From NCBI RefSeq assembly GCF_947169325.1, contig NZ_CAMVPN010000007.1, positions 1 to 54,287 on the forward strand: 54,287 bases of DNA, in the 5' to 3' direction. The stretch is from an uncultured Methanobrevibacter sp. GTDB lineage: Archaea > Methanobacteriota > Methanobacteria > Methanobacteriales > Methanobacteriaceae. Positions 4,203 to 53,511 of the stretch are shown here, piece after piece; the first letter of the stretch is position 1; each line of letters starts with the position of its first letter. Made by a program: the position numbers and the translations under genes. The notes below the pieces were generated by a model, which searched no databases, was not told the DNA's origin, and saw only the letters and a program-made list of their open reading frames with translations.

Positions 4203-4259
4203 GGAAATTCCAAAACAAAAACAATTTTACAAGATGAAAGCAATTTGGCAAATTTTAAA
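4203..4259. repeat. Short 19-bp-spaced CAATTT repeat (weak)
   Basis: CAATTTTAC at 4222 and CAATTTGGC at 4241 are exactly 19 bp apart. This is the spacing and core seen upstream of hemD and hemB. Only two units are recognisable, and the element lies between the flavodoxin promoter and the end of the HEPN gene. Confidence 0.35.
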
Positions 4260-4269
4260 AAAAAAATAT

Positions 4270-4656
4270 TCACTGCAACATGCTAAAAATAGCATTCGCA
4301 AAGTCGTATGCCTCTTTAACATCATCTTCATCAATGATTCTGACGATGTCATAATCGGCGTCTTTTCTCAATTCCTTGAAATCAAAGAAATCATCAGCCA
4401 GTTTATATTGGTGTAACTTTCGCAAACCATATACAATAGCCAGATGCATACTTGATTCATCACTATAATCATCCAAACTATTGAAATTACCATTAACCAA
4501 AATCCATTCTTTGGCATGCAAATAACTTGCATAATAAAGACGGTTGACAATGGTTCTCCTAATACATTGAAGGTCATATTTTTCAGAATTAAATTGATGA
4601 TTATTCAGATAATCCGCCAATTCAAATAAATGTTCAGGCACAAATGCATGAACCAT
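4270..4656 (-). CDS. HEPN domain protein
   Basis: This is a 128-residue, mainly helical protein. Residues 28-52 contain RRTIVNRLYYASYLHAKEW, the R-x-YYA-x-x-HA helix that marks HEPN domains. Near residue 97 LRKDADYD matches the later R-x-x-ADY helix. HEPN proteins are often RNA-cleaving toxins using R-x4-6-H; here the Arg and His lie close enough to fit loosely. The start has GAGAGGTGAT directly upstream. It follows a 103-residue gene by four bases in the same operon, the arrangement of a toxin-antitoxin pair, but the partner is not a recognisable MNT nucleotidyltransferase. The domain call is good; the toxin role is inferred. Confidence 0.65.
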   Translation of the reverse strand: MVHAFVPEHLFELADYLNNHQFNSEKYDLQCIRRTIVNRLYYASYLHAKEWILVNGNFNSLDDYSDESSMHLAIVYGLRKLHQYKLADDFFDFKELRKDADYDIVRIIDEDDVKEAYDFANAIFSMLQ

Positions 4657-4660
4657 ATGA

Positions 4661-4972
4661 TCACCTCTCTTGAGTGAGTACAGTGGCAGAGTTATTGAAA
4701 ATATACATCAAACCTTCGTTTCTTGAAAATTCAAGAGAATCATCAACAATCATGTGAGAAATTCTACGAACTTGCTTAAAAGACCAATCATTAGGAGTGG
4801 CAATATTAAAAGTAGCCATAGAATCCCAGTCCCTTTTGTTTTTTGGTTTAAAAGAAACTTCACCAAGACCATATTTTTTACTCAAATGGATTAAAAATGT
4901 TTCATATTTTTTTAAATCCTCATCATCAAACGGAATGTTAGGATTGAAAATGTTATCTCTATCAGTTAACAT
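4661..4972 (-). CDS. Hypothetical protein, partner of the HEPN gene
   Basis: This 103-residue acidic protein with no signal peptide or membrane segment lies just upstream of the HEPN gene, with four bases between them. GGTGAATAT precedes the ATG. Visible segments are an acidic N-terminus (FDDEDLKKYETFLIHLSKKYG), a beta-like middle, and the helix WSFKQVRRISHMIVDDSLEF. I do not recognise the family. Position and size suggest an antitoxin or cognate partner for the HEPN protein. The alternative is a diverged nucleotidyltransferase-like protein, but the GS-x10-DxD motif is absent. Confidence 0.5.
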   Translation of the reverse strand: MLTDRDNIFNPNIPFDDEDLKKYETFLIHLSKKYGLGEVSFKPKNKRDWDSMATFNIATPNDWSFKQVRRISHMIVDDSLEFSRNEGLMYIFNNSATVLTQER

Positions 4973-5096
4973 ATATTCACCATTTTAATTAATATCGTTC
5001 AACAACCAAATGCTTAAATTATAATAAAATTCACCGCCAAATATACTATATACTCACTCAAATATAAATTTAACTAATTAAATTTCACTTTGAAGT

Positions 5097-5172
5097 AAAT
5101 TTAACACTATTACAACAATTTTACGAAGTTGGAACAATTTTACATTGTCAGAGCAATTTTAATTAAAATTAA
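5097..5172 (+). promoter_or_regulatory. 19-bp-periodic CAATTTTAC array upstream of hemD
   Basis: CAATTTTAC starts at 5116 and at 5135, and CAATTTTAA at 5154, each exactly 19 bp apart. A weaker unit (AAATTTAAC) sits in register at 5097. The array ends just before a TATA-like ACATTATAAA at 5181-5190. GAAGGT at 5226-5231 is the ribosome-binding site of hemD. The same array, in the same orientation relative to the gene, lies upstream of hemB. It is probably a protein-binding site array controlling tetrapyrrole synthesis. Confidence 0.55.
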
Positions 5173-5240
5173 ATTAACAAACATTATAAACAAACAAAAA
5201 CAAAATATATAACATTATAAATTAATGAAGGTAATATAAA

Positions 5241-6011
5241 ATGTCAAAACCCGTTGTTGCAATAACAAGGCCTAAGGATAGGGCAAAAAAGGCTTGTGAG
5301 ATTGTTGAAAAATTGGGAGGCAGTGCAGTTCTTGCACCTACACTTGATTTGGAACCGGTCAACAGCGAATCCTTGAAAAATCTGGTCAAAAGAAAGGACG
5401 ATCTTGATTGGATCATATTCACATCACCTACAACAATCGTTTCCCTCAACAGGTTCTATCCGGATTTCTTAAAAACCCTGAGCTGCAAATTGGCAGTGAT
5501 TGGAAACAAGACCGGAAAACTGGCCGAAAAAAATGGACTTAACGTCGATTTGATGCCTGAGGATTTCACTGCAGAAGGCCTTATCGAAGAGTTTAAAAAA
5601 CGCGAAATAACAAATCAGATTATCGGAATTCCAAGAACCGCTTCTGCAAGGCCAATACTACCTGAAGAGCTTGAAAAACTTGGAAACGAAGTCATTTTAG
5701 CCGAGGCTTACAAGTCACTCTTTCCGATGGATGAAAAATCAATAAAGGATTTGATGAGTAAAATCGAAAACTCAGAAATTGACGCAATCACATTTACAAG
5801 CCCACTGACTGTTGAAAACTTCTTTGAAATAGCTGATGACAAAGCAAAACTGGCAGAACTTTTAAATGACAATCTATTGACAGTCTGCATCGGCCCGATT
5901 ACAGCAAAGGTCCTTGACAAATACGATGTTGCCCACATTTACCCTGACACTTACACCGTTCCAGATATGATGGAATTATTATTCAAGACATGGAGAGAGA
6001 CAAATGAATGA
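5241..6011 (+). CDS. hemD: Uroporphyrinogen-III synthase
   Basis: The product is 256 residues, the normal length for the family. It closes hydroxymethylbilane to uroporphyrinogen III, the branch point to siroheme, cobamides and coenzyme F430. The bilobed HemD pattern is visible: ITRPKDRAKKACEIVEKLG at the N-terminus, WIIFTSPTTIVSL in lobe one, IIGIPRTASARPILPEEL near the hinge, and AITFTSPLTVENFFE and TVCIGPITAKVLDKY in lobe two. HemD is poorly conserved overall, but these segments are in the right order. It is the first gene of a run with a glycosyltransferase gene that overlaps its end by eight bases. The upstream 19-bp repeat array is shared with hemB, which supports joint control of the pathway. 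Confidence 0.88.
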   Translation: MSKPVVAITRPKDRAKKACEIVEKLGGSAVLAPTLDLEPVNSESLKNLVKRKDDLDWIIFTSPTTIVSLNRFYPDFLKTLSCKLAVIGNKTGKLAEKNGLNVDLMPEDFTAEGLIEEFKKREITNQIIGIPRTASARPILPEELEKLGNEVILAEAYKSLFPMDEKSIKDLMSKIENSEIDAITFTSPLTVENFFEIADDKAKLAELLNDNLLTVCIGPITAKVLDKYDVAHIYPDTYTVPDMMELLFKTWRETNE

Positions 6012-7107
6012 TAAAATAAGCATTATCTTACCTATTTTCAATGTCGGACCTCATTTGAAAGGAGGAATTGACTCCCTAATCAATCAGACAATTGGAAATG
6101 AAAATCTTGAAATCATCATGGTCAACGACTGCTCAACAGACGGATCAGACAAGATTATCGATGAATATGCTGAAAAGTATGACTGCTGTGTTGCAATACA
6201 TCACAAAACCAACAGTGGAGGAGCGCACACTCCAAGAAATACAGGCATTGAAGCCGCCACAGGCGACTACATCATGTTTTTAGACCCGGATGACAGATAC
6301 ACACCAGATGCATGTGAAGTCCTCTACAATACAATCAAGAAATACGATGTCGATTTGGCCTTTGCAAGGTTCAGGAGAATATTCGAATACGGAGGATACG
6401 TTCAGAAGTCATACTCCCCGTATGAGGACGATTTGGAAAGCGCATATCCTGATGAGACTTTCGAGTCTGCAAACTTCCTGGACATTCCGGATGTAATCTG
6501 GGACAATGTCGTTGAGAGATTCCTATATGGAAAAACCCAGGAAGTGACCTATTCAAGGAACGGACCTATTGACGTCATCCATGTCGACAATATCGAGCAG
6601 GAACCTGACCTTTTAAAAATGCAGCCCTCAGTATGGTGCAAAATCTACAAAAGGGAACTTATCATGGACAATGACATGCGCTTTAAGAAGTACGTCACAG
6701 GCGACGACATGGCATTCACCCTCGAAGCGCTTCTGAACGCCGAAGGAATCGTCTATCTGAACAATTTCATTTCCTATGATTATTACATCAGGGATTTGCC
6801 TGATGACAAATCCATTACCAACAACGTTAATGTCAGGCTTTTGGATGAGCTTATGGAAGCCTACATATACTGCAGAAAGAAAACCGAAGGATTTTCAAGC
6901 GTTGTGCAGAACGTGTCATTGAATCCGCATCTGCTTCACTGGATGCATACCTGGAAAGGCTCACCTTTCACCAAAAGCGAAAACGAACTGCTCTTAAGCA
7001 AAGTGAAAAGGCTTAAGAAAATCCACAACAGAGATTTCAAATCCAAGATGTTAATGTCAACAATGACAACAGCACTTGAAACCAAAATATTGACCTCAAA
7101 GGAGTAA
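6004..7107 (+). CDS. Family 2 glycosyltransferase
   Basis: The product is 367 residues. The N-terminal GT-A domain starts with ISIILPIFNVGPHLKGGIDSL, continues with MVNDCSTDGSDKIIDEY, and has the metal- and nucleotide-sugar-binding FLDPDDRY near residue 95. GGAHTPRNTGIEAATGDY is the usual family 2 segment before it. The C-terminal half is helical and has TGDDMAFTLEAL, the likely acceptor or base segment. There is no membrane segment, so it acts at the cytoplasmic face on a lipid- or protein-linked glycan. It overlaps hemD by eight bases and is followed directly by glf. A galactofuranose-containing surface glycan is therefore plausible. The donor sugar cannot be read from sequence. Confidence 0.85.
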   Translation: MNDKISIILPIFNVGPHLKGGIDSLINQTIGNENLEIIMVNDCSTDGSDKIIDEYAEKYDCCVAIHHKTNSGGAHTPRNTGIEAATGDYIMFLDPDDRYTPDACEVLYNTIKKYDVDLAFARFRRIFEYGGYVQKSYSPYEDDLESAYPDETFESANFLDIPDVIWDNVVERFLYGKTQEVTYSRNGPIDVIHVDNIEQEPDLLKMQPSVWCKIYKRELIMDNDMRFKKYVTGDDMAFTLEALLNAEGIVYLNNFISYDYYIRDLPDDKSITNNVNVRLLDELMEAYIYCRKKTEGFSSVVQNVSLNPHLLHWMHTWKGSPFTKSENELLLSKVKRLKKIHNRDFKSKMLMSTMTTALETKILTSKE

Positions 7108-7112
7108 TGATT

Positions 7113-8207
7113 ATGAAGGATTATAAATATGTGATTGTCGGAGCCGGACTTTCCGGTCTGACAATAGCCGAAAGGATTACAAGCGAACTGGACGAAGAGG
7201 TCCTGATTATCGAAAAGAGAAACCACATTGGTGGAAACGTATATGACTTTTATGACGACGGCATTCTGGTTCAGAAATACGGACCGCACATCTACCATAC
7301 CACTGAAAAGACCGTCCATGACTATCTCTCCCGCTTCACCGAGTGGAACGATTATGTGCACAGGGTTTTAAGCTATGTGGACGGAAAGCTCGTGCCTATG
7401 CCAATCTGCATCGACACACTCAACGCACTCTATGACCTTGATTTGGATGAGGATTCCATGAAGGAATGGATTGATGAGCACAAGGAAGACATTGACGAGG
7501 TCAAATCCTCCGAAGACGTCGTTTTGAAAAATGCAGGCCGTGACATCTACGAAAAGCTTTTCAAAAACTACACCGAAAAGCAGTGGGGAACTTCAGCGGC
7601 AAACTTGAGCTCAAGCGTCATTTCAAGAATCCCTTTCAGATTCAACCATGACGACAGGTACTTTGCTGACGCATATCAGGGAATGCCTAAGGAAGGATTC
7701 ACAAGGATGTGTGAAAACATGGCAGCATCAGACAAGATTCATGTGATGCTTGACACCGACTACAAGGACGTCATCGATGGCATCAACTATGAAACCCTGA
7801 TCTACACTGGTCCTATCGACTACTTCTACAACTACAAGTACGGAGAACTCCTCTACAGATGCCTCAACTTCGTTTACGAGATTTTGGATGAGGATTCATT
7901 CCAGGAAGTTGCAGTCGTCAACTATCCGAACGACCCTTACTTCACAAGGATTACCGAGTTCAAGAAGCTTACCTGGCAGGAAGTCGAAGGAAAAACCGCA
8001 ATCATGAGGGAGTATCCTGGATTCAACGGAGAGAAATGCTATCCTTATCCTACCCAGGAATACCTCGACAAGTTCAAGCTCTATGAAGCTGAAATGGAAA
8101 AAGAAGAAAACGTCATATTTTTAGGAAGGCTTGCCAAGTACAAATACTACAACATGGACCTGGTTGTGAAGGACGCCTTGGAAGTCTTTGAAAATCAAAT
8201 CAAATAA
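7113..8207 (+). CDS. glf: UDP-galactopyranose mutase
   Basis: The product is 364 residues. This flavoenzyme converts UDP-galactopyranose to UDP-galactofuranose. The FAD-binding GAGLSGLTIAERI, then EKRNHIGGNVYDFYDDGI and KYGPHIYHT, are signature segments of Glf; later come YTEKQWG, FRFNHDDRYFADAYQGMPKEG and YTGPIDYFYNYKYG. A second ATG at 7113 is preferred over 7107, because AAAGGAG lies eight bases before it but only two bases before the first. It follows the glycosyltransferase gene with overlapping stop and start sequences, so the two probably work together on a surface polysaccharide or glycoprotein glycan. Confidence 0.93.
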   Translation: MKDYKYVIVGAGLSGLTIAERITSELDEEVLIIEKRNHIGGNVYDFYDDGILVQKYGPHIYHTTEKTVHDYLSRFTEWNDYVHRVLSYVDGKLVPMPICIDTLNALYDLDLDEDSMKEWIDEHKEDIDEVKSSEDVVLKNAGRDIYEKLFKNYTEKQWGTSAANLSSSVISRIPFRFNHDDRYFADAYQGMPKEGFTRMCENMAASDKIHVMLDTDYKDVIDGINYETLIYTGPIDYFYNYKYGELLYRCLNFVYEILDEDSFQEVAVVNYPNDPYFTRITEFKKLTWQEVEGKTAIMREYPGFNGEKCYPYPTQEYLDKFKLYEAEMEKEENVIFLGRLAKYKYYNMDLVVKDALEVFENQIK

Positions 8208-38829: not shown

Positions 38830-41292
38830 TTACCGATAAAACTTTTCAGCCAAATATTTGCCTGTTAAACTATTTTCAGATGCGATAATGTCTTCAAGAG
38901 AACCTGAAGCTAAAATTTCACCGCCCCGATAGTCATCATCGATTCCAATATCAATAATATAATCAGCATTGGCTATCAGGTCAAGATCATGCTCGATGAC
39001 AATGACTGTAGCTCCATTATCAATCAGATAGTCCAATACGCTGATTAACAATTGCACATCCAGCGGATGAAGACCTATTGTAGGCTCATCGAATATGAAA
39101 ACTGAATTTTTCTGTGACTTTCCAATTTCAGAAGCCAATTTCAGCCTTTGAGCTTCACCGCCTGACAGGCTTGGAGTGGACTCGCCCAAAGTCAAATAAC
39201 CCAAACCCAAATCGGACAGTTTCTGCAGTTTTTTAGTTACCTTCTCAAGGCCGAACAATTCCTCCAGAGCTTCAGCAACGGTAAGTGCCATAATATCCGC
39301 AATGGACAATCCGTTGTATTTTATTTCCTCTGCTTTTTTATCATATCGTGACCCGTCACAGTCAGGACAGGTTATTTCAACATCAGGTAGGAATTGAACA
39401 TCCATAGATACGCTTCCAGTGCCGTTGCAGGTCCCGCACCTCAGTTTACCTGTATTATATGAAAAATCAGACATCTTATATTCATCTGTCAGCTTTGCAA
39501 ATTCCCGTCTTAAATCGTCAAGCACCTTCGAATAGGTTGCAACGGTGCTTCTGACATTCTGACCGATTGGAACGCTGTCAATCAAATCTATTTTTTTAAT
39601 GCCTTCACAATCAATGTCCCTGATATCATTTGGCAAATCTTCACCGTTAATTTGGGATTTGACTGCAGGATAGAGTGCTTCCAAAAGTAAAGTTGTCTTT
39701 CCACTTCCAGACACTCCGGTTACCGCTGTGAGCTTGCCTTTAGGAATGCTGATGCTCATATTCTTAACATTGTGGATTTCATTGGTTTTAAGAGAAATGC
39801 ATCCCTTTTCAAAGATTTCATCACTTTTATTTCTAATGATTATCTTTTCAGAATTTGTTAAAAACGCAGCGATTTGAGATGATTTGCATTGCTTTATTTC
39901 ATCAAGTGATCCTTTAGCAATCACATTTCCTCCGTCTGCTCCCGCATGAGGCCCCATTTCAACCATATAATCTGCAATTGACAATATCCTAGTATCGTGA
40001 TCGACCAGAACAATTGAATTTCCATCCTCAACCAGTCTTTTGATGACACTGATTAATCCGTCCACATTATTTGGATGAAGGCCTATTGACGGCTCGTCCA
40101 AAACATAGAGCACACCTGTAGTGCGATTCCTTAATGTCTTTGCAAGCTGAACCCTTTGCAGTTCCCCTGTTGATAATGTGTTTGAAGGCCTGTCAAGTGA
40201 AATGTAGCTCAATCCCAAATCAAGCAGAATATTTGCGTTGTCCATGAACTCCTCTGCAATATCCTGTGCCATCCCTTTCATCTCCTCGGGCAAATCATTG
40301 ATTACCTCAGGAATCCACAATACGATTTCCTGAAGGTTCATCTGACATGCCTGAGCAAGATTGATTCCACCCAAAAGGGTTTGTCTTGCTTTTGAATTTA
40401 ATCTTGTGCCTTCGCAGTCACTGCAGACTTTTGTGGTTAAAAACTTGTTAATCTTTGTCAATCCCTTTTCTGTTTGAGCATTTTTAAGGGCCTCTTCAAT
40501 TGCCTTGTGTGCATTTCTATACTCGGCATTTAATTCAAATAGCTTGCCGTTTTTTGAGGGGATGTTAATGTATCTTTTGACTGCAGGTCCGTTATAGACA
40601 ATGTCCTTTTCCTCTTCAGTCAAATCCCTGAATGGCACATCAACCCTAACGCCCAGCTCTCCGGCAACATGATACATCCAGGATATCCCGAACTGATTCC
40701 AGGCTGCAACTGCACCCTCTTCCAATGTTTTTGCATCATCCAAAACAAGTTTGCTGTCATCAACGTCCCTTATTAAACCAGTTCCGCTGCAGGTCGGACA
40801 TGCCCCATCGGAGTTGAATGCATATTCTTCAGCGCCCAAACCATAGAATTCCACACCGCATTCAGGGCATTTTATTGGAATTTCACGGGCAACATTCAAG
40901 GTCGGCTCCTGCAGGTGCCCGTTTGGACATGTATAATTGCCGCATCTTGAGTACAATAATCTCAGGGAGTTTAAAAGTTCTGTTGATGTTCCGAATGTGG
41001 ACCTAATGTTTGGAACATTTGGCCTTTGGTGAAGAGCCAAGGCGGCAGGGACATATTGGATTGAATCCACTTTTGCCTTTGCGCTTTGTGTGATTCTTCT
41101 TCGGGTGTATGTTGAAAGGGCATCGAGGTATCTGCGTGAGCCTTCAGAGTACAATACTCCCAGAGCAAGCGAAGATTTTCCTGAACCTGAAACTCCACTG
41201 ATGGCTACAATTTTACCCAAAGGAATATCCACATCGATATTCTTCAAATTATGAACACTGGCTCCCCTGATGATTATCATATCCTGGTACAT
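38830..41292 (-). CDS. Short UvrA-like ABC ATPase lacking the UvrB-binding domain
   Basis: The product is 820 residues, against about 940 for true UvrA. Two ABC modules are visible. The first has GVSGSGKSSLALGVLYSEG and LSTGELQRVQLAKTL; the second has GVSGSGKTTLLLEALYP and LSGGEAQRLKLASEI. Zinc knuckles occur in CPECG, CPTCSGTG, CSDCEGTRL and CGTCNGTG with CPDCDGSRY. After LLYSRCGNYTCPNGH the chain runs almost directly to CPECGVEFYGLGAEEYAFNSDGACP, so the roughly 100-residue UvrB-binding domain is missing. It is thus a UvrA2-type paralogue, probably in DNA binding or drug tolerance without UvrBC. No uvrB or uvrC lies nearby. Confidence 0.85.
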   Translation of the reverse strand: MYQDMIIIRGASVHNLKNIDVDIPLGKIVAISGVSGSGKSSLALGVLYSEGSRRYLDALSTYTRRRITQSAKAKVDSIQYVPAALALHQRPNVPNIRSTFGTSTELLNSLRLLYSRCGNYTCPNGHLQEPTLNVAREIPIKCPECGVEFYGLGAEEYAFNSDGACPTCSGTGLIRDVDDSKLVLDDAKTLEEGAVAAWNQFGISWMYHVAGELGVRVDVPFRDLTEEEKDIVYNGPAVKRYINIPSKNGKLFELNAEYRNAHKAIEEALKNAQTEKGLTKINKFLTTKVCSDCEGTRLNSKARQTLLGGINLAQACQMNLQEIVLWIPEVINDLPEEMKGMAQDIAEEFMDNANILLDLGLSYISLDRPSNTLSTGELQRVQLAKTLRNRTTGVLYVLDEPSIGLHPNNVDGLISVIKRLVEDGNSIVLVDHDTRILSIADYMVEMGPHAGADGGNVIAKGSLDEIKQCKSSQIAAFLTNSEKIIIRNKSDEIFEKGCISLKTNEIHNVKNMSISIPKGKLTAVTGVSGSGKTTLLLEALYPAVKSQINGEDLPNDIRDIDCEGIKKIDLIDSVPIGQNVRSTVATYSKVLDDLRREFAKLTDEYKMSDFSYNTGKLRCGTCNGTGSVSMDVQFLPDVEITCPDCDGSRYDKKAEEIKYNGLSIADIMALTVAEALEELFGLEKVTKKLQKLSDLGLGYLTLGESTPSLSGGEAQRLKLASEIGKSQKNSVFIFDEPTIGLHPLDVQLLISVLDYLIDNGATVIVIEHDLDLIANADYIIDIGIDDDYRGGEILASGSLEDIIASENSLTGKYLAEKFYR

Positions 41293-41369: not shown

Positions 41370-41954
41370 ATGAAAGAACTGATTGCTATGTTTACCTATC
41401 CAAAAATATTGACACGAAAAGAACTGAAAAAGATTTCCAAATATCCCTGTGACGATGAAATAAAAGATGCATATACCAAATATTTATCCAATTACTCCTT
41501 CAAGGAATTTGTCAAATACTGTGAGGACAATGACAGTGATGATTTGGAAAAATTAATCTTCAGCTTCACAGATCTGCAATTGGAAAGATTCGAGCCGAAT
41601 TCATTGATATGGATTTCACATGCGATGGTCAATTTCATGATTTATTTCGATGTCAATCTTGATTACGGCGAGTATTATGACGCCTATGCATCAGCGCTGC
41701 AATTTACAGTATTGTACTGCGCCATGGACATGACAATCAATAAGATTTCATTTGAAGATGTTGAAATTCCAGAACATTCCAAAACTTGTTTTGAAAAGTT
41801 TTTCGCCAAATGTCCGGATTTCAGATTTAATCTAAAAACAGACTGCAATCTGGCACACAAATCATTCAACACCAATTTTGACTTTACCGGTGAAGAATTC
41901 TACTTGAAAATGAAAAAGCACTTTGATGAATGCGACTATTTAAAAAAAGAGTGA
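41370..41954 (+). CDS. Hypothetical helical protein
   Basis: This 194-residue, mainly helical, acidic protein has seven cysteines and many aromatic residues (FKEFVKYCEDNDSDDLEKLIF, NFMIYFDVNLDYGEYYDAYASALQF). It has no signal peptide or convincing membrane segment and no motif that I recognise. It is divergent from the UvrA-like gene, with 77 bases between the starts, and converges on purA. A second ATG at residue 7 is possible; neither has a strong ribosome-binding site. Confidence 0.5.
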   Translation: MKELIAMFTYPKILTRKELKKISKYPCDDEIKDAYTKYLSNYSFKEFVKYCEDNDSDDLEKLIFSFTDLQLERFEPNSLIWISHAMVNFMIYFDVNLDYGEYYDAYASALQFTVLYCAMDMTINKISFEDVEIPEHSKTCFEKFFAKCPDFRFNLKTDCNLAHKSFNTNFDFTGEEFYLKMKKHFDECDYLKKE

Positions 41955-43254: not shown

Positions 43255-45012
43255 ATGAATTTATTAAGCAATGACAATAAATTATTAAATTCAGTTTTTA
43301 AAAACTTTTTATTTGGAACAGTGTTTTCTGTTGTATGCACTATCTTAGGCATTATTCTAAATGGAATACTAATCGGTAATTTTTTTGGCAAAATCGGACT
43401 TGCAGCAGCAGGTTTGACAATGCCCATTATCTACGGTTACCTGACAATAGCATATGTCTTCGCATATGGAGGTTCCATCGTTGCATCCAATCATATGGCC
43501 GATGAAAAGAGAGTGAACAACAATTTTTCAGTCACATGTATCGTTGCAGCCATTGTAGGAATAATCTTAACCATTTTACTCTTATTGTTTTCAACAGATG
43601 TTGTCCAAATATTGGGGGCTTCCGGCGAATCATTCAATGCAACAGTATCATTAATGAAAGGGTTGTCATTGGCAACTTTGCCTGCGATGTTTTTATACAT
43701 TTTCGTCAATTACTCCCGAATCGATGGATATCCATTATTGGGCCTATATGCAGGTTTAATATTGTTTCTATCAAATTTGATTTTAGATCTGGCATTTGTA
43801 TTGATATTGAAAACAGATATTTTTGGCGTTGGCCTTGCTACTGCATTAAGTGCAATAATTACAGTGTTGTTCCTATTGATGCATTTTCTTTCTAAAAAAA
43901 GTTCATATAAGTTCCATAAAAAACCAGAATTTAAACCTGAACTATACGAAATAATAAAAACAGGACTTCCAAGTGCATTAAATCAAGTTTACAATATGCT
44001 CCGTACAATAATTACAAATAACTTAGGGGCGATAGTTGGAGGAGTTATATTTGTAGGTGCACTGTCCGTGCAATCAAATGTCTATCTGCTGTTGTGCAGC
44101 ATAGGCGTCGGAATTGGAACAACCACCCTTGCGCTGGGAGGAATATTCTATGGTGAAAAGGATAAGACACACTTAGAACAGCTATTGGGACTGTCCATTA
44201 AATATGCATTAATACTCGTTTCCATTACTGCAGTGATTCTGTATATTTTTGCCCCTTATTTCGTTTATGCATTTGGAAATAATCCAGACGTGTATGGCAC
44301 TGCAATTAGAGGCATCAGAATATTTGCATGGTCCCTGCCTTTATCAGGATTATGTTATGTTTTCTTAAACTTTTATAATGCAACACAACAGCTTAAAATT
44401 GCCAATTACATAGGTTTTGCCCATAGTTTCCTATTCCTTTCAGCATTTTCAACCATGTTCGCATTCCTGATTGGAGGCGACGGCATTTGGATAAGCTTTG
44501 TATTATGCGAAATTGTCACATTGCTTAGTTTACCTTTCATAATTAAATTGAAGATTAAAAAGTTCCCTAAATCATTGAAGGATTTTGTAATCATAGACGA
44601 AGACCAATTCCCATCTGAAGACACTTATGTGGCATATATTGAATCTGAAGATGAGCTGATGGATATCGTTGAAAACCTTGATGAAAAATTGTATGATAAT
44701 AATTTAGATGACAAAACCAAATTGAAAATAGAACTGATTCTAGAAGAAATGGGAAAAAATATTTTTACCCATGCATATAAATCTAATGAAAACAAATATA
44801 TCAATATAAGAATTCGTTATAAAAATACTGAAGAAGTCATTGTTTATTTCCAGGACAATGGTGTTCCTTTCGATATTGGAAAGGATTACCTAGAAAAAAA
44901 GGAGTTTCATGGAATTAAAATTATCAAGAACTTTTCAGAAGACATAAATTATAATCATAACATTAAATTGAATAACAACAAGATTGTCATTCCTAAAAAA
45001 ATAAATTTGTGA
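43255..45012 (+). CDS. MATE-family exporter fused to an RsbW-like HATPase domain
   Basis: The product is 585 residues. Residues 1-445 hold about twelve membrane segments of a MATE-type Na+/H+-driven exporter (AAAGLTMPIIYGYLTIAYVFAYGGS and similar). After a linker, residues about 460-585 carry a cytoplasmic ATPase domain of the RsbW/SpoIIAB type. Its N box is ELILEEMGKNIFTHAY (near 494) and its G1 box is FQDNGVPFD (near 536). The G2 box is degenerate (HGIKIIKN instead of GLGL), so kinase activity may be weak and the domain may act mainly as a binding module. A free STAS-domain gene follows after four bases. I know of no described transporter controlled by a fused anti-sigma-like domain. AAAGGGAAG precedes the ATG. 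Confidence 0.85.
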   Translation: MNLLSNDNKLLNSVFKNFLFGTVFSVVCTILGIILNGILIGNFFGKIGLAAAGLTMPIIYGYLTIAYVFAYGGSIVASNHMADEKRVNNNFSVTCIVAAIVGIILTILLLLFSTDVVQILGASGESFNATVSLMKGLSLATLPAMFLYIFVNYSRIDGYPLLGLYAGLILFLSNLILDLAFVLILKTDIFGVGLATALSAIITVLFLLMHFLSKKSSYKFHKKPEFKPELYEIIKTGLPSALNQVYNMLRTIITNNLGAIVGGVIFVGALSVQSNVYLLLCSIGVGIGTTTLALGGIFYGEKDKTHLEQLLGLSIKYALILVSITAVILYIFAPYFVYAFGNNPDVYGTAIRGIRIFAWSLPLSGLCYVFLNFYNATQQLKIANYIGFAHSFLFLSAFSTMFAFLIGGDGIWISFVLCEIVTLLSLPFIIKLKIKKFPKSLKDFVIIDEDQFPSEDTYVAYIESEDELMDIVENLDEKLYDNNLDDKTKLKIELILEEMGKNIFTHAYKSNENKYINIRIRYKNTEEVIVYFQDNGVPFDIGKDYLEKKEFHGIKIIKNFSEDINYNHNIKLNNNKIVIPKKINL

Positions 45013-45016
45013 TATT

Positions 45017-45313
45017 ATGGATATGGAAATACAAAAAGACGGAAAAAAATTAGACATTAAAATAGTAGGCAGATTAGATTCAAAAACTGCTCCTGAACTC
45101 AAAGAAATGCTCAATGATGAATTGAAGGATATCGAAGAGTTGACTTTTGATTTGTCCGAATTGATTTATATTTCAAGTGCAGGACTTAGAGTAATCTTAT
45201 CCGCTCAAAAAACAATGAACAAACAAGGATCAATGAAAGTTACAAATGTTCAGGACATTGTGATGGAAGTATTTAAATCAACTGGTTTTGTAGACATATT
45301 AACAATCGAGTAA
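45017..45313 (+). CDS. STAS-domain protein, anti-sigma-factor antagonist type (RsbV/SpoIIAA-like)
   Basis: The product is 98 residues, one STAS domain. IVGRLDSKTAPELKEML and LTFDLSELIYISSAGLRVILSAQ match the family; S54 in YISSAGL aligns with the phosphorylated serine of SpoIIAA (S58) and RsbV. In bacteria the unphosphorylated form binds the RsbW-type kinase and releases its target. Here the only kinase-like domains nearby are fused to the MATE and GH3 proteins on either side, so this protein is probably their shared switch. TGTGATA precedes the start. The gene sits between the two fusion genes in one operon. Confidence 0.9.
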   Translation: MDMEIQKDGKKLDIKIVGRLDSKTAPELKEMLNDELKDIEELTFDLSELIYISSAGLRVILSAQKTMNKQGSMKVTNVQDIVMEVFKSTGFVDILTIE

Positions 45314-45329
45314 TTTTGAGGTCAGAATA

Positions 45330-47465
45330 ATGGATTCAATCAAAATCGATATGTCTGAATTATCCCTTACGGAGCAATTTTACTTAAAATGCATTTCAGA
45401 GGGTGCCAAAGTTCGTGAATCATTAGATGTCATGACACAAGACCCAATGAAATATAATACAGAGTTATTGATGAAAATTATCGAAGACAACAAGGAAACC
45501 GAATATGGTCAAAAATATGATTTTGCAAACATTAAAAGCATTGAAGACTATCAGAATAAGGTTCCTATAACCGATTATGATAATTATGTTGATTATATCC
45601 GCAGAATGACTGAAAACGGAGAAAAAAATTTATTGACTTCCTATGAAATAGTTCACTATGCAAAGTCATCAGGCACAATGGGAAATCCTAAAAGGATACC
45701 CGCATCTTCCCTTAATAAAGAAATCAATTTTAAATATAATTATGCTTATCTATTTAATTTATTTGCCGAAAAAGTAGGTATTGACTGGATTAAATATCCT
45801 TTTTTAAACTTAACTGAAACTTCCATATCCACATTACCATCCGGCGATACTTATGGTTCCATTTCAGGTAAGATAATGGGAGAATTTGGAGACCAATTGC
45901 CTGATTTTGTCACATCCCCAATTGAAGCTCTGAAGCCGAAGCCTAAAACAGACATCCGTTACATTCATGCCCGTTTTGCATTAATCAATCCGGACATTCC
46001 ATTTACAGTAACCAGTTTCGTTAGTTTGTTTTTAGAAACTCTACGTTACATTAAACGTAATTGGGAACTATTAGTTAAAGATATTGAAAATGGAACTATT
46101 GATGAATCCATAAAAATGCCAAAAGAAGTACGTGAAAGCTTACTCGGTAAAATTGAACCAATGCCTGAAAGGGCGGAGGAACTAAGACAAATATTTAAAG
46201 AAGGTTTTGACGAACCTACTGTTCCTAAAATTTGGCCAAAGATGTCTCTTCTCATAGGATGCGGAAGTGGGGGTTTTTCAAATTACATTAAAAAAATAAA
46301 AGAGTTCACAGGCCCTGACTTTAATTTTGCATTTATTGGACTGACTGCATCTGAAGGCATTTTTTCACTTTTCGTTGAACTGAACAATCCGGATTCAATG
46401 CTCATACCAGACAGCATGTTTTATGAATTTTTACCATTGGTAAATTATGGAGACTACAGTAAAGTCGTGACTCTGGACCAACTAGAGGAAGGAAAGGAAT
46501 ATGAAGTCATTACAACCAACCTATCCGGATTTTATCGTTACAGGATGAAGGATGTTATTCGTTGTATTGGAATGCATAACCATACACCAATAATTGAATT
46601 TTTATATAGGTTAGACCAATGCTTAAGTTTGGCTGGTGAGAAAATCAACGAAGAAAAGTTAAGAAAAGCGGCATATAAAACTGAAAATGAATTCGGATTC
46701 GATTTAATAGACTTTTCCGTTTATGCAGATTCTACCTCATCACCAATGAAATACGTTTATTTAATGGAAATAGAAGATTTGCCTGATGATGTAACAAAAG
46801 AAAACCTTCAGGAAAGGTTAAATGAGAATTTATGTGGAACTGACCCTCTTTTATTCAATAAAATGGAAAAAGGAATTATTGGAAAAACAGAACTTCGTTT
46901 CCTGCAACCCGAAACTTATTTGTTATATAAAGAATTGAAAGTTGCTAGAGGATGTTCACCTGCTCAAGTAAAGCCTCCTAGAATCTTAAGGGAGGAAGAG
47001 GACATAAGTTTCTTTAATGTTTTACTATATGATGATTTAGAACAAGATGGAGGATTAGATATGGAAGAAATTATTCTGAAATCCGATTCAGAGAATTTAG
47101 ATTCCATTATGTTAAAAATTGAAGAATATCTCGAAGATAAAAATATTGCAATGAAATCAAAATTACAATTAGAGTTGATAATTGAAGAAATATTTGTAAA
47201 TATCTGTAATTATTCATATGAAAAAGAAGGAGAAATAAAAATCCAATATTGTCTATTAGAAGATCCTTTGAGGATAATTGTGAATTTTATAGATAATGGA
47301 ATGGAGTTCAATCCATTGAATAAAGCAGTCCCCGATTTAACTCTCAATGCAGACGAAAGAGACATTGGAGGATTGGGTTTGACAATAGTTAGGAAAAATG
47401 CAGACAGACTTGACTACAAGTATGAAAACAATCAAAACATTCTAACTATTGAAAAGATATTTTAA
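45330..47465 (+). CDS. GH3-type acyl-acid amido synthetase fused to an RsbW-like HATPase domain
   Basis: The product is 711 residues. Residues about 20-560 form a GH3-family adenylating enzyme. Motif I is HYAKSSGTMGNPKRIPAS near 110, motif II is close to GLTASEGIFSL near 335, and motif III is FYRYRMKDVIRCIG near 400, followed by LAGEKINEEKL. Plant GH3 enzymes join amino acids to jasmonate or auxin; the substrates of microbial relatives are largely unknown. Residues about 575-711 are an RsbW-like ATPase domain with N box LELIIEEIFVNICNYSY (near 613), DNGMEF (near 653) and an intact GGLGLTIV lid motif. This domain could phosphorylate the STAS protein encoded 16 bases upstream. The fusion is unusual, and both halves look intact. 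GAGGT precedes the start. Confidence 0.85.
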   Translation: MDSIKIDMSELSLTEQFYLKCISEGAKVRESLDVMTQDPMKYNTELLMKIIEDNKETEYGQKYDFANIKSIEDYQNKVPITDYDNYVDYIRRMTENGEKNLLTSYEIVHYAKSSGTMGNPKRIPASSLNKEINFKYNYAYLFNLFAEKVGIDWIKYPFLNLTETSISTLPSGDTYGSISGKIMGEFGDQLPDFVTSPIEALKPKPKTDIRYIHARFALINPDIPFTVTSFVSLFLETLRYIKRNWELLVKDIENGTIDESIKMPKEVRESLLGKIEPMPERAEELRQIFKEGFDEPTVPKIWPKMSLLIGCGSGGFSNYIKKIKEFTGPDFNFAFIGLTASEGIFSLFVELNNPDSMLIPDSMFYEFLPLVNYGDYSKVVTLDQLEEGKEYEVITTNLSGFYRYRMKDVIRCIGMHNHTPIIEFLYRLDQCLSLAGEKINEEKLRKAAYKTENEFGFDLIDFSVYADSTSSPMKYVYLMEIEDLPDDVTKENLQERLNENLCGTDPLLFNKMEKGIIGKTELRFLQPETYLLYKELKVARGCSPAQVKPPRILREEEDISFFNVLLYDDLEQDGGLDMEEIILKSDSENLDSIMLKIEEYLEDKNIAMKSKLQLELIIEEIFVNICNYSYEKEGEIKIQYCLLEDPLRIIVNFIDNGMEFNPLNKAVPDLTLNADERDIGGLGLTIVRKNADRLDYKYENNQNILTIEKIF

Positions 47466-47542
47466 ATCCCTTCAATTATTCCATCTAATCAACACACCAG
47501 TACAGAATTTCAATAGTTTGTCTGTATCTAAAATCAATCTAA

Positions 47543-49408
47543 TCAGTTCATTTTAATAATAAGCATTGTAGTATCGTCAACAAGTTCATGATTGTTGCAG
47601 AATTCGTTGATGTCCTTTTCAACGGATTTCAAGATAACATCTATTTCATTATCCTTATTCTGATTTAATATTTTTTGTAGCCTTTCTTCACCATACAATC
47701 CGTTTCCATCGTTTGCGAAAGTAACCCCATCAGTATACAAGAATAACATATCATCATGGTTCAAATGAATAACATTCTCCTCATAATGCATATCTTCCAT
47801 TCCTGCTAAAAGCAATCCCGGTTTAACATCCAAGAATTCAAAATCACCATCATTTTTCTTAATTAATGGATTTTTGTGTCCAGCATTAACATAAGACAAT
47901 ACGCCAGTTTTTGTATTAAGTTTTCCAAGCCAACAACCAACAAACAAATCTCCAATATCATCTTTACAGAGTTCGTTGTTGACCTCATGTAATGCCTCTG
48001 ACAAATCTGAATAATGGCAAACATAATCCCTGATTAATGTCATGGATTTTACCATTATTAATGAGGTGGCCACACCTTTACCGCTGACATCACCTATTAC
48101 AAATCCAATATGATCTTCATCAATTTTGAAATAATCATAAAAGTCTCCGCCGACTTCACGTGCAGCTTTCATTAATCCCCAAAGACGGACATTATTATTA
48201 TCGTCGAACTTTTCGAAATCGGTTGGAATCATGGCATGTTGAATTTCATTAGCCAATTTGAGTTCTGTTTCATACCTTTCCTTTTCTTTGGTTACATCCA
48301 ATAAATTTGCACTGTAATCGACATATTCCCGCTCCATATTAAGCAGGGATTCAGACAATGATTTAATTTCATTGCTTACAGTAATAGAATTTAAATTGAC
48401 AACTAACCTTTTTAAATCATCATCATCATTTATTTCTTCAGACAGATATTTGGATAACTGATTGATTGGTCTTATGAGCTGGTTGTCCAAAAATAGGAAA
48501 TAAATTAGCAAAGGTATGAAAATAGCCAATAGGAATCCGGATAAAATCAGCAGATAATTAAAGAATTCGGATGCAAAATCATAATAATTATAAAATCCGA
48601 TTATTGTAAATGAAATCAATAATATTGTAGGAATCAATGCTATAATAAGAAATATTGAAAAGAACAGATTATAAAATATTGTAATTTTTCCAACACTGTT
48701 TATTTTAAAAATGCCTTCATCAAATGGTTTGAATAGATATATTATTAATAATATTAAGATTAAACCAAAACAGAATACATTCGGAGTTCTGAATGTAACT
48801 ATTAAAAGAATTAATGCACTTATGAAGAATAGACGATACAATTTCTCAGGAATGTATTCTTTAAATTGAACCGTTGGAGTGTATAATGCAATATTGAACT
48901 TAGCACACAATCCAATTCCCAACAATAGCAAGACTATTCCGAATGTAATTATCATGAAATAACTTTCAAGATTTAAACTGACAGTTAAATTGAATATCTG
49001 ATTAAAGAACAGATATGTAAGCAAGACCATGACTAATGCAATATCTATTATCTTGAAAAAGCTATAAAAACTGTTTAAACTTGGTATTCCATAACGTTGT
49101 TTATAATTTAAGGAATACCATAATTTCCAAGGCATTATACCCAATACCAACAGAGATGTGAAACTTAATAGGATTGTTGGAACATTACTCATGTCTAAAA
49201 ACAAAATCCAATATACAATTTCAACTATGGCAAATCCCAATATTGAAAAAGGACCCAACAATAAACTTAACAACAGAATAATGGACAGTTCCAAGTGCAT
49301 AGAATTACTTTCAAACCAGAATGATCCAATTAAAATAAGGATTATATTTACTGCCATGGAAAATAACACAATAAATTTTCGTGACTTGAAAAGCTCTTTA
49401 CTAATCAT
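47543..49408 (-). CDS. Membrane-anchored SpoIIE/RsbU-type phosphatase, copy 1
   Basis: The product is 621 residues. Residues 1-310 contain about nine to ten hydrophobic segments with an integral-membrane sensor layout. A linker and coiled helix (EIKSLSESLLNMEREYVDYSANLLDVTKEKERYETELKLANEIQHAM) lead to the PP2C-like SpoIIE domain at about 390-621. The metal-binding segments AREVGGDFYDYF, FVIGDVSGKGVATSLIM, LFLYTDGVTFAND and DDTTMLIIKMN are complete. Such phosphatases dephosphorylate STAS antagonists; the STAS protein at 45017 is the obvious substrate. Its start overlaps the paralogous phosphatase gene by eight bases, with GGAAGGTTAG upstream. It converges on the GH3-fusion gene. Confidence 0.9.
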   Translation of the reverse strand: MISKELFKSRKFIVLFSMAVNIILILIGSFWFESNSMHLELSIILLLSLLLGPFSILGFAIVEIVYWILFLDMSNVPTILLSFTSLLVLGIMPWKLWYSLNYKQRYGIPSLNSFYSFFKIIDIALVMVLLTYLFFNQIFNLTVSLNLESYFMIITFGIVLLLLGIGLCAKFNIALYTPTVQFKEYIPEKLYRLFFISALILLIVTFRTPNVFCFGLILILLIIYLFKPFDEGIFKINSVGKITIFYNLFFSIFLIIALIPTILLISFTIIGFYNYYDFASEFFNYLLILSGFLLAIFIPLLIYFLFLDNQLIRPINQLSKYLSEEINDDDDLKRLVVNLNSITVSNEIKSLSESLLNMEREYVDYSANLLDVTKEKERYETELKLANEIQHAMIPTDFEKFDDNNNVRLWGLMKAAREVGGDFYDYFKIDEDHIGFVIGDVSGKGVATSLIMVKSMTLIRDYVCHYSDLSEALHEVNNELCKDDIGDLFVGCWLGKLNTKTGVLSYVNAGHKNPLIKKNDGDFEFLDVKPGLLLAGMEDMHYEENVIHLNHDDMLFLYTDGVTFANDGNGLYGEERLQKILNQNKDNEIDVILKSVEKDINEFCNNHELVDDTTMLIIKMN

Positions 49409-51350
49409 TTTCTAACCTTCCATTATATTTTATAATCAACATTGATGTGTCGTCAAATTGCTCACTGTTATTGCAGAATTTATCAATGTCCCTGTTGACT
49501 TCATTTATTATACCGCTTAATTTTTCATCCTTATTTTTATTGAGAATATCCCTTAAACGATCTTCTCCATAAAATTCATTATAATTTTCATTAGCTTCAG
49601 TAACTCCATCAGTATACAAGAATAACATGTCACCTGCATTTAAATCAATTTCATGTTCAACATAGGATATTCCTTCCATCCCACCAATGACCAAATTCGG
49701 ATGGGTGTCCATGTATTCGAAACTATTGGAGTCATGTTTGATTAACGGTTGGTTATGTCCAGCATTTACATAAGACAATTTTCCTGTTTTTAGATTCAAT
49801 TTGCCAATCCATGTTGTTAAAAAGAATTCCTCATTGTTTCTTTCATAAGCCAAATCGTTTACTTCTCCAATCATTTGTGATAGATTCTCATTGAATCTCG
49901 AATGATTCTTAATTAAATACAATGTTTTAACCATGAATAATGTTGCAGGAATCCCTTTATCACTTACATCACCAATGACAAAATAAACGTTGTCGTCATC
50001 AACTTTAAAGTAATCATAAAAATCCCCTCCAACTTCTCTTGCGGGACTCATATATGCATAAACTTCAAATAATTCCTTTTGTGAAAATTCCTCGAAATCC
50101 GTTGGCAACATATTTGATTGAATGTCTCTTGCCACATCAAATTCCGTTTCGAATATTTCCTTTTCAGAAGTTGCAATCTGAAGCTGGTCCAAATTGGTTT
50201 TGATACTGTTATATATCCTTATAAATGATCTGGCTAAAACTCCAGTACTATCCTCGTTGTCAATGTACTTCTTTAATTTATCCAAGGATTCGTTTCTGTC
50301 TTTAGTTTTAAAGTAATTATCTGCAAAATCAATGAAGTCATAAAGAGGATTTGTAATCCTATTTTCAATTACCTTTATATGAATTAAAGAAACTAATAAA
50401 GTCAGCACGCTTGTAAATGCAATGATAAGTAAAAATTGATATGAGGGATCCTCAAATGTAGAGCCCAGCACCGGAACAAATGACAAAATCAACATCTTGA
50501 AATAACCGAAATTCAATCCTATTGTTATTGTAATAATGATTAGGAATATCAATATGATTTCCTCAATAATCGAATAATTGTCGTTTGTCGGTTTGATTTC
50601 CTTGTCAAAAGTGTTGAAAATTATCAGTAGCGAAGTTACTATTAAAATGAAGTAGAAAATATGCTTTATGAACCTGATGCTCACAATGAATTCCTTAAAC
50701 ATGATATAGAAAACGCACATCAAAAGCACTGCTAAAAGATAATACATGTTAATGTTAACTTTTGTAATCCTTCTTTTTGGAGTCTGTAAAGGTATTTTAA
50801 GTATATTGAAAGAACTAATCAGCAGCAATCCCACAATTATGGAAAACGTGATGATATTCAAAATGTAAGGCACGTTGAAATTCACATCAGTGACTGAATA
50901 TGTATAATTCAGACCAGGATAAAGTGAGAATGAAATAACCAACAGTGCAAAGTATACGATTGAAACAATTACTGTTATTAAAAAGAACTTTACAATATTG
51001 TATGTTGAATTAAATCTCGGAGTGTCGATCTTTTTGCGGGTAAGAATGTTGTACCATAATTTATACGCCAATATTGAAATAAAGAATGTGGTTGCAAAAT
51101 CAATGATAGGGGTTGGAAATCCGATTCCCTCAATCAGTTCCCCCGTTAATGTTGCAAATGCAAAACCAAAAGCGCCTACTGGACCGAACATCAAACCGAA
51201 TGTCGGGGCCAAAGCCATGTCCACGAATATATAATTTCCACCAATACGCATACACTCAAAAAGATAGTTGAATACCAATTCCACGCAAAATGTGAAAATG
51301 AAAATAAATATTTTGTTACTAAATAATTCTTTAATCTTTGAGGGAACCAT
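49401..51350 (-). CDS. Membrane-anchored SpoIIE/RsbU-type phosphatase, copy 2
   Basis: The product is 649 residues from the ATG at 51350; a TTG one codon earlier is also possible. The N-terminal about 330 residues hold ten or so hydrophobic segments, including GGNYIFVDMALAPTFGLMFGPVGAFGFAFA, which resembles S-component or MASE-like membrane sensors. A HAMP-like helix (ENRITNPLYDFIDFADNYFKTKDRNESL) follows. The C-terminal SpoIIE domain has AREVGGDFYDYF, FVIGDVSDKGIPATLFMVK, LFLYTDGVTEANE and DDTSMLIIKYN, all intact. It is paralogous to copy 1 in the C-terminal half but strongly diverged in its membrane part. The two may thus sense different signals and act on one STAS protein. Confidence 0.9.
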   Translation of the reverse strand: MVPSKIKELFSNKIFIFIFTFCVELVFNYLFECMRIGGNYIFVDMALAPTFGLMFGPVGAFGFAFATLTGELIEGIGFPTPIIDFATTFFISILAYKLWYNILTRKKIDTPRFNSTYNIVKFFLITVIVSIVYFALLVISFSLYPGLNYTYSVTDVNFNVPYILNIITFSIIVGLLLISSFNILKIPLQTPKRRITKVNINMYYLLAVLLMCVFYIMFKEFIVSIRFIKHIFYFILIVTSLLIIFNTFDKEIKPTNDNYSIIEEIILIFLIIITITIGLNFGYFKMLILSFVPVLGSTFEDPSYQFLLIIAFTSVLTLLVSLIHIKVIENRITNPLYDFIDFADNYFKTKDRNESLDKLKKYIDNEDSTGVLARSFIRIYNSIKTNLDQLQIATSEKEIFETEFDVARDIQSNMLPTDFEEFSQKELFEVYAYMSPAREVGGDFYDYFKVDDDNVYFVIGDVSDKGIPATLFMVKTLYLIKNHSRFNENLSQMIGEVNDLAYERNNEEFFLTTWIGKLNLKTGKLSYVNAGHNQPLIKHDSNSFEYMDTHPNLVIGGMEGISYVEHEIDLNAGDMLFLYTDGVTEANENYNEFYGEDRLRDILNKNKDEKLSGIINEVNRDIDKFCNNSEQFDDTSMLIIKYNGRLEND

Positions 51351-51460
51351 CAAATATTATTTTTAGCATGTGAGTATATAATCCTTTTTATATTTTTCTT
51401 CATGTTATTTTCAAAACATTGTAAAATATTCAAATTTACATCAATTTAATAATAGTTTTA

Positions 51461-51612: not shown

Positions 51613-53511
51613 ATGCATGTTGAAAAACAATATAGAGAATTAGAAGACATCGAGGAGATACGAGTTTATAATATTGACCCTAACGAGGTTTTCATTGACG
51701 TTCCCCCCGTAAAGGAACCTGAAAAAGTTCGTTTCAGCAATGTTATGAAGCACGTTCCTTCCGACATTAACGTCTTTTTACCTGTAGATGGTGGCGAAGA
51801 CTTTATTGTTCAAAGGATTGGATGGAATCTTCTTGAAAGACTGAATTTGAAATTAGAAGATGTTGAAGGTCGTTTATTTAGCGAAGTATCCCCATTTTAC
51901 TATGAAATATTTAGTGAAAGCTTTAAAGAGGTTTATGAAACTGGTGAAACCAAAGCCATGAGAATTTTTTATTACCTCAGCGATAAAATTCGAACCCTTG
52001 CAAATATTCATATAATTCGGGACGAAGATGAAATATTTGCAATTTCCGATTTGAAAAAAGCAGATACAGATGATAAATCTCCAGAAGAGCAGCAAAAAGA
52101 AGAGGAAGAAAACAAAGCCACTTTAATAGAATACTTCTCACAAACCGGAAGCTATTACAAAACCCATGATGAGTTTACATGGACGCCTGGAATATATAAT
52201 ATAATAAACCGGTCAAAAGAGACAAGCGATGCCTATTACAACATCATCTTCGATCTGGTAATACCTGAAGACAAACCTTTGGTGGAAGAATTGCTTGATA
52301 CAATGAGCCCTGAAACCGACACCTACGAAAACATCATACGTATCAAGACCCCTGGAGGACACATCAAATACCTCGACACATATCTCTACTCAAAATTTGA
52401 TGAAAACGGCGAAGAAATCAGCCATTACGGATTGTTCAAGGACATAAGTGTTGACTCCCACAAACACATGACTCGACCGGTCGACTTCATGCTGAACGGA
52501 TTCAATCATAACTCAAAATTGTCCCTGCTTGTTGAACCTTTAAGCAAACGCTACGAGTTCAGTGAAGGATTCTATAAAATGATTGAAATTCCAAAAAACG
52601 AATATATCCATAATGAAAAGATTCTTGACAACATTATCGAAGAAAATGTCCGGGAAGAAATTAATAGATTGATTAAAGGCGAATTAAACGAAGTCAATCA
52701 GGTATTCACCTATAAGGTCAATGGTGATGAAGACAATTTGAAAATATGTGAATTATTTATTGAACGTTTCAAATATGGAAACCAGGAGCACAGCATTGGA
52801 TTTTTAACAGACATTACCCTTTCACGCAAAAAGCAGCAGGAACTGATAAAGTCAAATGCGACCAAAAATATACTGATTAAAGAAGTTCACCACAGGGTAA
52901 AAAACAACCTTCAGGTATTGAACAGTTTCCTGAATCTTGAAAGAAGAGCTTATGGAGATAATCCAAACAGTATTTTAGACAACATGCAAGCCCGTTTATC
53001 TTCACTGGCGCTACTTCACGAAAAGACATACAATACAGAAGACTTCATCAACATCAACCTTGAAGACTACATGAAGGACCAGGACTCCACATTGCATATG
53101 CTGTTCGGAGCAAATGACATCAACTTCACTTCAGACGTTGACCCAGAAATCCATCTTTCAATGGACGTAATTACCCCATTGCTTTTAATTGTTGATGAAT
53201 TGACAATGAATGCTATCAAACATGCATTTCCAGACCCTGACATGGAAAACAAAACAATATCCAAAACAATCAGGTTTATTGATGAATACATATGTGAATT
53301 AGTACTGAAAGACAACGGAGTTGGTGTAAAAGACCCTAACTCCCTAATAAATCACAATTTAGGTGGGGAGATAGTTAAAAACTTAACAAAACAGATTAAT
53401 GGAGAACTAGAAATTTTAGACTGTGAAGTTGGAACTGGATTCAGAATAATATTCCCAGTGAACTTTGACCATACCCTTGATTACCATCGCGAAACAGGAG
53501 GTGACTTCTAA
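51613..53511 (+). CDS. Cytoplasmic PAS-domain histidine kinase (HisKA_2 type), copy 1
   Basis: The product is 632 residues without membrane segments. Residues 1-150 form an N-terminal region with EDFIVQRIGWNLLERLNL, shared with the next gene. A PAS-like segment at about 175-280 (GSYYKTHDEFTWTPGIYNIINR, IKTPGGHIKYLDTYLYS) is followed by a second, more diverged one up to about 410. The transmitter has the HisKA_2 H-box KEVHHRVKNNLQVLNSFLNLE near 424, then an HATPase with DELTMNAIKHAF near 528 and KDNGVGVKDPN near 566. It should autophosphorylate on His; no response regulator gene is in the window. TAGGTAA precedes the start. It is divergent from the phosphatase genes and overlaps the next gene by one base (TAATG). 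Confidence 0.88.
   Translation: MHVEKQYRELEDIEEIRVYNIDPNEVFIDVPPVKEPEKVRFSNVMKHVPSDINVFLPVDGGEDFIVQRIGWNLLERLNLKLEDVEGRLFSEVSPFYYEIFSESFKEVYETGETKAMRIFYYLSDKIRTLANIHIIRDEDEIFAISDLKKADTDDKSPEEQQKEEEENKATLIEYFSQTGSYYKTHDEFTWTPGIYNIINRSKETSDAYYNIIFDLVIPEDKPLVEELLDTMSPETDTYENIIRIKTPGGHIKYLDTYLYSKFDENGEEISHYGLFKDISVDSHKHMTRPVDFMLNGFNHNSKLSLLVEPLSKRYEFSEGFYKMIEIPKNEYIHNEKILDNIIEENVREEINRLIKGELNEVNQVFTYKVNGDEDNLKICELFIERFKYGNQEHSIGFLTDITLSRKKQQELIKSNATKNILIKEVHHRVKNNLQVLNSFLNLERRAYGDNPNSILDNMQARLSSLALLHEKTYNTEDFININLEDYMKDQDSTLHMLFGANDINFTSDVDPEIHLSMDVITPLLLIVDELTMNAIKHAFPDPDMENKTISKTIRFIDEYICELVLKDNGVGVKDPNSLINHNLGGEIVKNLTKQINGELEILDCEVGTGFRIIFPVNFDHTLDYHRETGGDF

Follow-up and report, generated by a model that had tools for sequence, protein, structure and literature searches.

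Five adjacent genes of a Methanobrevibacter-group archaeon (genome 2.6 Mb) together encode all the parts of a bacterial partner switch, as recognised by Pfam profiles and motifs: a MATE exporter fused to an RsbW-like HATPase domain, a STAS antagonist, a GH3 synthetase fused to another such domain, and two SpoIIE phosphatases. We propose that these proteins form a post-translational partner switch that governs the synthesis and export of a small amide or peptide-like molecule, and we give this proposal, in its full form, a probability of about 0.5. The genes lie in a window of 54,287 nucleotides, the whole stretch of contig NZ_CAMVPN010000007.1 that was analyzed. A sequence-only reading of the window had already assigned the complete set of switch parts to these genes, and had held that no sigma factor serves as the switched partner. 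Both points stand; a search of the genome for sigma-70 region 2 (PF04542) gave no match, and the control search matched in 10 bacterial genomes.

Parts of the proposed switch

The exporter gene (43255–45012, + strand) is followed on the same strand by the genes for the STAS protein (45017–45313) and the GH3 protein (45330–47465), the three being separated by 4 and 16 nt. After a further 77 nt come the two phosphatase genes on the – strand (47543–49408 and 49401–51353), which overlap by 8 nt; the probable ATG start of the latter is at 51350. Based on these gaps and the overlap, we argue that the locus comprises two convergent operons. Curated Pfam cut-offs were exceeded by MatE, HATPase_c_2 (in both fusions), STAS, GH3 (three domains) and SpoIIE.

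The STAS protein (98 aa) is of the RsbV/SpoIIAA type, scoring 65 bits against TIGR00377 (anti-sigma antagonist superfamily), above the cut-off, and 53 bits against PF01740. Residues 51–57 read YISSAGL, the motif in which a phospho-serine had been proposed. HMMER alignments to 1th8_B and 6m36_B bear this out, pairing Ser54 (codon 45176–45178, + strand) with the first serine of DS[ST]G, the known phospho-site (Ser58 of SpoIIAA, Ser56 of RsbV). Ser54 is thus the predicted phospho-acceptor, and the serine motif is retained in all aligned relatives but one (L048).

The MATE protein (585 aa) has two MatE stretches above the Pfam cut-off (79 bits) and ∼12–14 hydrophobic segments, in keeping with the two repeats and ∼12 transmembrane segments of a MATE exporter; its score against TIGR00797 fell below the cut-off. 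A C-terminal HATPase_c_2 domain (31 bits) occupies residues 480–568. The GH3 protein (711 aa) matches the N, M and C domains of acyl-acid amido synthetases with 224, 81 and 54 bits, and its C-terminal HATPase_c_2 domain scores 57 bits. The GH3 part is homologous to the plant enzymes (phmmer E = 2e-42 to GH3.12) and carries the adenylation motifs SSGTMG at 113 and YRYRMKD at 402. Against OlsH, the sole bacterial GH3 equivalog in the NCBIfam list, it scores 76 bits, with the cut-off at 620. Plant JAR1/GH3.12 and bacterial OlsH share its three GH3 domains and adenylation motifs, but here the enzyme bears a C-terminal HATPase and scores far under the OlsH cut-off.

Both phosphatases (621 and 650 aa) pair a multi-pass membrane N-terminus, with about 8–10 hydrophobic segments, with a PP2C domain of the SpoIIE type (PF07228, 145 bits at residues 430–620 and 154 bits at residues 452–643, respectively). 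The GGDF, GDVS, TDG and DDT motifs are present in both, supplying the metal-binding aspartates of a PP2C phosphatase.

Two unlike HATPase domains

The two fused HATPase domains had both been described as RsbW-like ATPases. This description fits the domain on the GH3 protein (47082–47453, + strand), in which the N, G1 and G2 (GGLG) boxes of a GHKL serine kinase are complete. Its nearest NCBIfam models are RsbW and SpoIIAB, with every score below cut-off, and its motifs suggest an active STAS kinase. The description fits the domain on the MATE protein (44689–44958, + strand) only in part; the N-box Glu/Asn and the G1 Asp are retained, but the G2 box and ATP lid are gone (KEFHGIKII). In an alignment of fetched family loci, none of 30 MATE-fused HATPases had the GGxG of the G2 box, and the lid was shortened, mostly to 19–24 residues. 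By comparison, GGxG was kept in 4/4 GH3-fused, 2/2 SpoIIE-fused and 29/33 stand-alone HATPases of the same alignment, and the stretch from G1 to G2 measured 29 residues in nearly all of these kinase-type domains. G2 and the lid were also lost in 33 of 34 further MATE-HATPases from Lachnospiraceae and Methanomethylophilaceae, the lone exception (L137) having GGIG and a short lid. Because these elements are missing in nearly all relatives, the MATE-fused domain is probably not a kinase, and the possibility that both fused HATPases are kinases was rejected on the same motifs.

The MATE-fused domain is nonetheless maintained. Between sister genomes its dN/dS is 0.10–0.20, like the rest of the module, and values are well below 1 for all domains of the cluster. 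Hence the domain is under purifying selection, which rules out a decaying remnant. Its predicted structure (pLDDT 78, pTM 0.76) has as best PDB matches SpoIIAB in complexes with SpoIIAA (1th8, 1til) and RsbW in complex with RsbV (6m37). The simplest reading of the motifs is that the domain acts as a docking receptor for STAS rather than as a kinase. The two fused HATPases would then be inequivalent, with a predicted kinase on the enzyme and a predicted receptor on the exporter. For another locus (L033), in which a MATE-HATPase and STAS lie in one natural in-frame stretch, an AlphaFold model reached a pTM of 0.54, with low confidence in the middle because the alignment lacked that region.

Recurrence and spread of the module

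Three further congeneric genomes (L065, L066 and L067) carry the complete five-gene cluster, with the same fusions. Full-length MATE-HATPase copies in these genomes are 75–80% identical, and GH3-HATPase copies 79–80% identical. This recurrence shows that the fusions are not assembly or annotation joins, and the low dN/dS agrees with it. Genes flanking the cluster differ between the sister genomes; those tested were not next to it there, save for a distant kinase in L067. The cluster therefore seems to behave as a cassette that moves as a unit.

Recurrence of the two architectures, and their co-occurrence with STAS and SpoIIE genes, had been put forward as a check on the fusions. For the exporter, the association is strong but not invariable. 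Among 139 family genomes, 65 had a MATE match reaching into the HATPase part, and 63 of these had STAS and 61 had SpoIIE (counts not corrected for phylogeny). STAS lay within 12 kb of 43 of 76 MATE-HATPase matches, compared to ∼1.6 expected, likewise not phylogeny-corrected. Thus, phylogeny aside, co-occurrence and adjacency are far above chance. Yet many MATE-HATPase genes have no STAS nearby, above all in Lachnospiraceae.

For the synthetase, the fusion recurs in the three congeneric genomes but not beyond. Other family members encode the HATPase on its own, close to GH3, and in one genome (G120, L079) STAS and GH3 form a single 676-residue protein, followed by a MATE-HATPase. The GH3-HATPase fusion is therefore a local variant. 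What is near-constant is the link to STAS: in most clusters, and in almost every archaeal relative of this GH3 clade, the STAS gene comes immediately before GH3. This adjacency and the natural STAS-GH3 fusion tie STAS to GH3.

Other modules place a different enzyme beside the same parts. In many Methanobrevibacter genomes a large gene precedes the MATE-HATPase gene, and the three such genes that were scanned encode nonribosomal peptide synthetases (NRPSs) with a terminal reductase domain. STAS lies divergently upstream at five of these loci, some with HATPase and SpoIIE genes as well. Four clusters combine GH3 genes with RimK-type ATP-grasp ligases and an ABC exporter pair (one by Pfam, three by gene order and size); these keep STAS-GH3 and lack MATE-HATPase, and no HATPase_c_2 domain was detected on their exporter. 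Another locus (L136) has a LuxC/AMP-binding protein, a STAS-HATPase protein and a MATE-HATPase. Thus, the enzyme slot changes (NRPS, GH3, GH3 with ATP-grasp, LuxC-AMP) while the switch and an exporter are constant.

The module had been presented as archaeal in particular, and this part of the earlier reading fell. Among 348 Lachnospiraceae genomes, 42 have MATE-HATPase and 25 have GH3; for 9 of the 25 GH3 genes examined, a MATE-HATPase lies ≤6 kb away, and full modules are present (L145, L177 and L134/L135). In a midpoint-rooted GH3 tree whose bacterial members are all Lachnospiraceae, the archaeal STAS-linked clade falls among Lachnospiraceae sequences, and Thermoplasmatota sequences are nested within those of Methanobacteriaceae. 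An archaeal invention was rejected on these grounds, the modules in Lachnospiraceae and, within the limits of that rooting and sampling, the tree. The tree pattern, read with the same limits, fits transfer among gut microbes. Because the same logic appears in other Methanobacteriaceae, in Methanomethylophilaceae and in Lachnospiraceae with NRPS, ATP-grasp/ABC and LuxC-type enzymes, the data suggest a mobile gut cassette, not specific to archaea, that controls the timing of synthesis and release of a secreted compound. Such a biosynthesis-export cassette, common to gut methanogens and Lachnospiraceae, offers a lead to secreted molecules in methane-producing communities.

Proposed mechanism, alternatives and known systems

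In the switch that we propose, the GH3-fused HATPase would phosphorylate Ser54 of STAS, and both membrane phosphatases would strip the phosphate in response to a cue from outside or from the membrane. Once dephosphorylated, STAS would dock on the GH3 unit as well as on the exporter's lid-less HATPase domain, licensing synthesis and export together. Phosphorylated STAS would release, and both activities would drop. No transcription factor would be needed. The least certain step is the direction, that dephosphorylated STAS means on, which is drawn by analogy with RsbV/SpoIIAA and SiaC. A broader version of the model, which we hold tentatively and at less than even odds, is that an exporter family with a pseudo-kinase receptor domain is common to gut archaea and bacteria, in which phospho-switched STAS would gate transport and STAS-GH3 or kinase-GH3 linkage would couple export to synthesis, free of sigma factors and of transcriptional control. 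If the model is true, it explains how partner switching works without a sigma factor, gives a role to STAS, SpoIIE and RsbW-like genes in methanogens, and adds direct exporter gating to the known outputs of such switches. The sharp contrast between intact and degenerate kinase domains makes it readily testable.

Classical partner switches are transcriptional, and for M. ruminantium, regulation of NRPS expression was among the roles suggested in passages of Leahy et al. 2010 (PMC2812497). Hence the switch could instead control transcription of the biosynthetic cluster via an archaeal regulator, with the fused HATPases only tethering it near the operon products. We consider this unlikely. The genome has no sigma factor match, no constant DNA-binding member was recognised in the modules among the minority of other ORFs scanned, and HATPase and STAS domains sit covalently on exporter and enzyme, with the MATE-fused domain under constraint. 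It is slightly less probable again that the exporter alone is switched, with the kinase on GH3 merely through fusion of neighboring genes and GH3 itself not regulated by STAS. The separate HATPase gene near GH3 in most relatives would fit this, as would the MATE-STAS-HATPase-SpoIIE modules without GH3 in five fetched stretches, but most clusters have STAS directly ahead of GH3, the two are fused in L079, and STAS-GH3 persists in ABC-type clusters that lack MATE-HATPase altogether.

The fusions might also be assembly handles, with STAS linking GH3 to MATE in a complex for synthesis and export, and with phosphorylation playing little or no part. The STAS-GH3 fusion and the loss of kinase motifs in MATE-HATPase are in line with this idea; it leaves unexplained the conserved serine motif, the neighboring catalytic PP2C phosphatases and the intact kinase domain on GH3, and we regard it as the least probable of the three. 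A post-translational switch acting on both exporter and enzyme remains our preferred reading.

Parts of this picture have precedents. According to the passages of Leahy et al. consulted, M. ruminantium has two NRPS genes accompanied by MatE genes and by anti-sigma antagonists, an anti-sigma kinase and serine phosphatases; the suggested roles were sensing, export and control of NRPS expression (PMC2812497). That a methanogen combines switch, synthetase and exporter is therefore already known from that report. As described there, clusters mru0066–0071 and mru0512–0516 resemble ours in combining a synthetase, MatE, an anti-sigma antagonist and a serine phosphatase, but have NRPS in place of GH3; neither a HATPase on MatE nor direct control of exporter or enzyme is described in those passages. 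A direct effect on an enzyme is known from Pseudomonas aeruginosa, where the unphosphorylated antagonist-like protein SiaC binds and activates SiaD (PMC7647112, PMC8457831). In the SiaA/SiaB/SiaC/SiaD system, too, a phosphatase and a kinase together determine the state of the antagonist-like protein, whose unphosphorylated form acts on the enzyme; however, the target is a diguanylate cyclase, and there is no fusion, exporter or degenerate HATPase receptor. The Bacillus switches (RsbU/RsbV/RsbW and SpoIIE/SpoIIAA/SpoIIAB) share the GHKL serine kinase, the STAS antagonist with a phospho-serine and the PP2C phosphatase, and the predicted fold of the MATE-fused domain is nearest to SpoIIAB and RsbW. 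They differ in that the module here lacks a sigma factor and carries the kinase-type domain on an enzyme and a degenerate copy on a transporter. We found nothing in the open-access literature on MATE-HATPase or GH3-HATPase fusions, on the degenerate HATPase, on STAS fused to GH3 or on how far the cassette has spread. What looks new is the fusions, together with the degenerate receptor and the branch that uses GH3.

Additional genes may bear on how the switch is wired. The same genome has a second STAS-HATPase-SpoIIE set (L084), along with other SpoIIE and MATE-HATPase genes, so cross-talk between sets is possible. Adjoining the module is a gene for a PAS-HisKA_2 histidine kinase (51613–53511, + strand), a possible input whose membership is uncertain. 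No counterpart was found in L065 or L066; in L067, a kinase 41% identical to it sits between the phosphatases and the MATE gene.

Enzymes in the target slot

Fetched loci (L handles, with genome:contig in brackets and locus-internal coordinates) show how the enzyme position of the module, the target slot, is filled in relatives. Consecutive genes at 4710-8837 of L104 (G138:C41) encode STAS, a thiamine-diphosphate enzyme, SpoIIE and HATPase; the thiamine-diphosphate enzyme is a further enzyme type occupying the slot. In L136 (G143:C4; 3735-10858), a cluster from Methanomethylophilaceae, a LuxC/AMP-binding protein is encoded together with a STAS-HATPase protein and a MATE-HATPase. Natural fusion of STAS to GH3 was seen at 5147-7177 of L079 (G120:C98; 676 aa), with a MATE-HATPase gene coming next. 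In L040, an 1150-aa protein (4212-7664) is encoded close to STAS-GH3-HATPase; besides its GH3 N-domain it has a long C-terminal region that lacks any Pfam match.

NRPS genes beside MATE-HATPase

Immediately upstream of MATE-HATPase in L085, L089, L090, L093, L094, L096 and L102 lies a large gene, and in several of these loci STAS is upstream and divergent. For L094, L096 and L102, Pfam identified the large gene product as an NRPS with a terminal reductase domain, an arrangement suggesting that the compounds made may be peptide aldehydes or alcohols.

Genes apart from modules

The genome containing the window has a second tandem SpoIIE phosphatase pair (L088, contig C22; 6790-10576), in whose neighbourhood neither STAS nor HATPase was detected. 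In the window itself, a 194-aa protein with no Pfam match (41370-41954, + strand) is encoded between purA and the gene for a UvrA-like protein (820 aa; 38830-41292, - strand; ABC and UvrA DNA-binding domain matches). A second type of stand-alone HATPase (~150 aa), located apart from modules, occurs in L058, L059, L060 and L061; its lid is longer, and most copies have altered G2 boxes.
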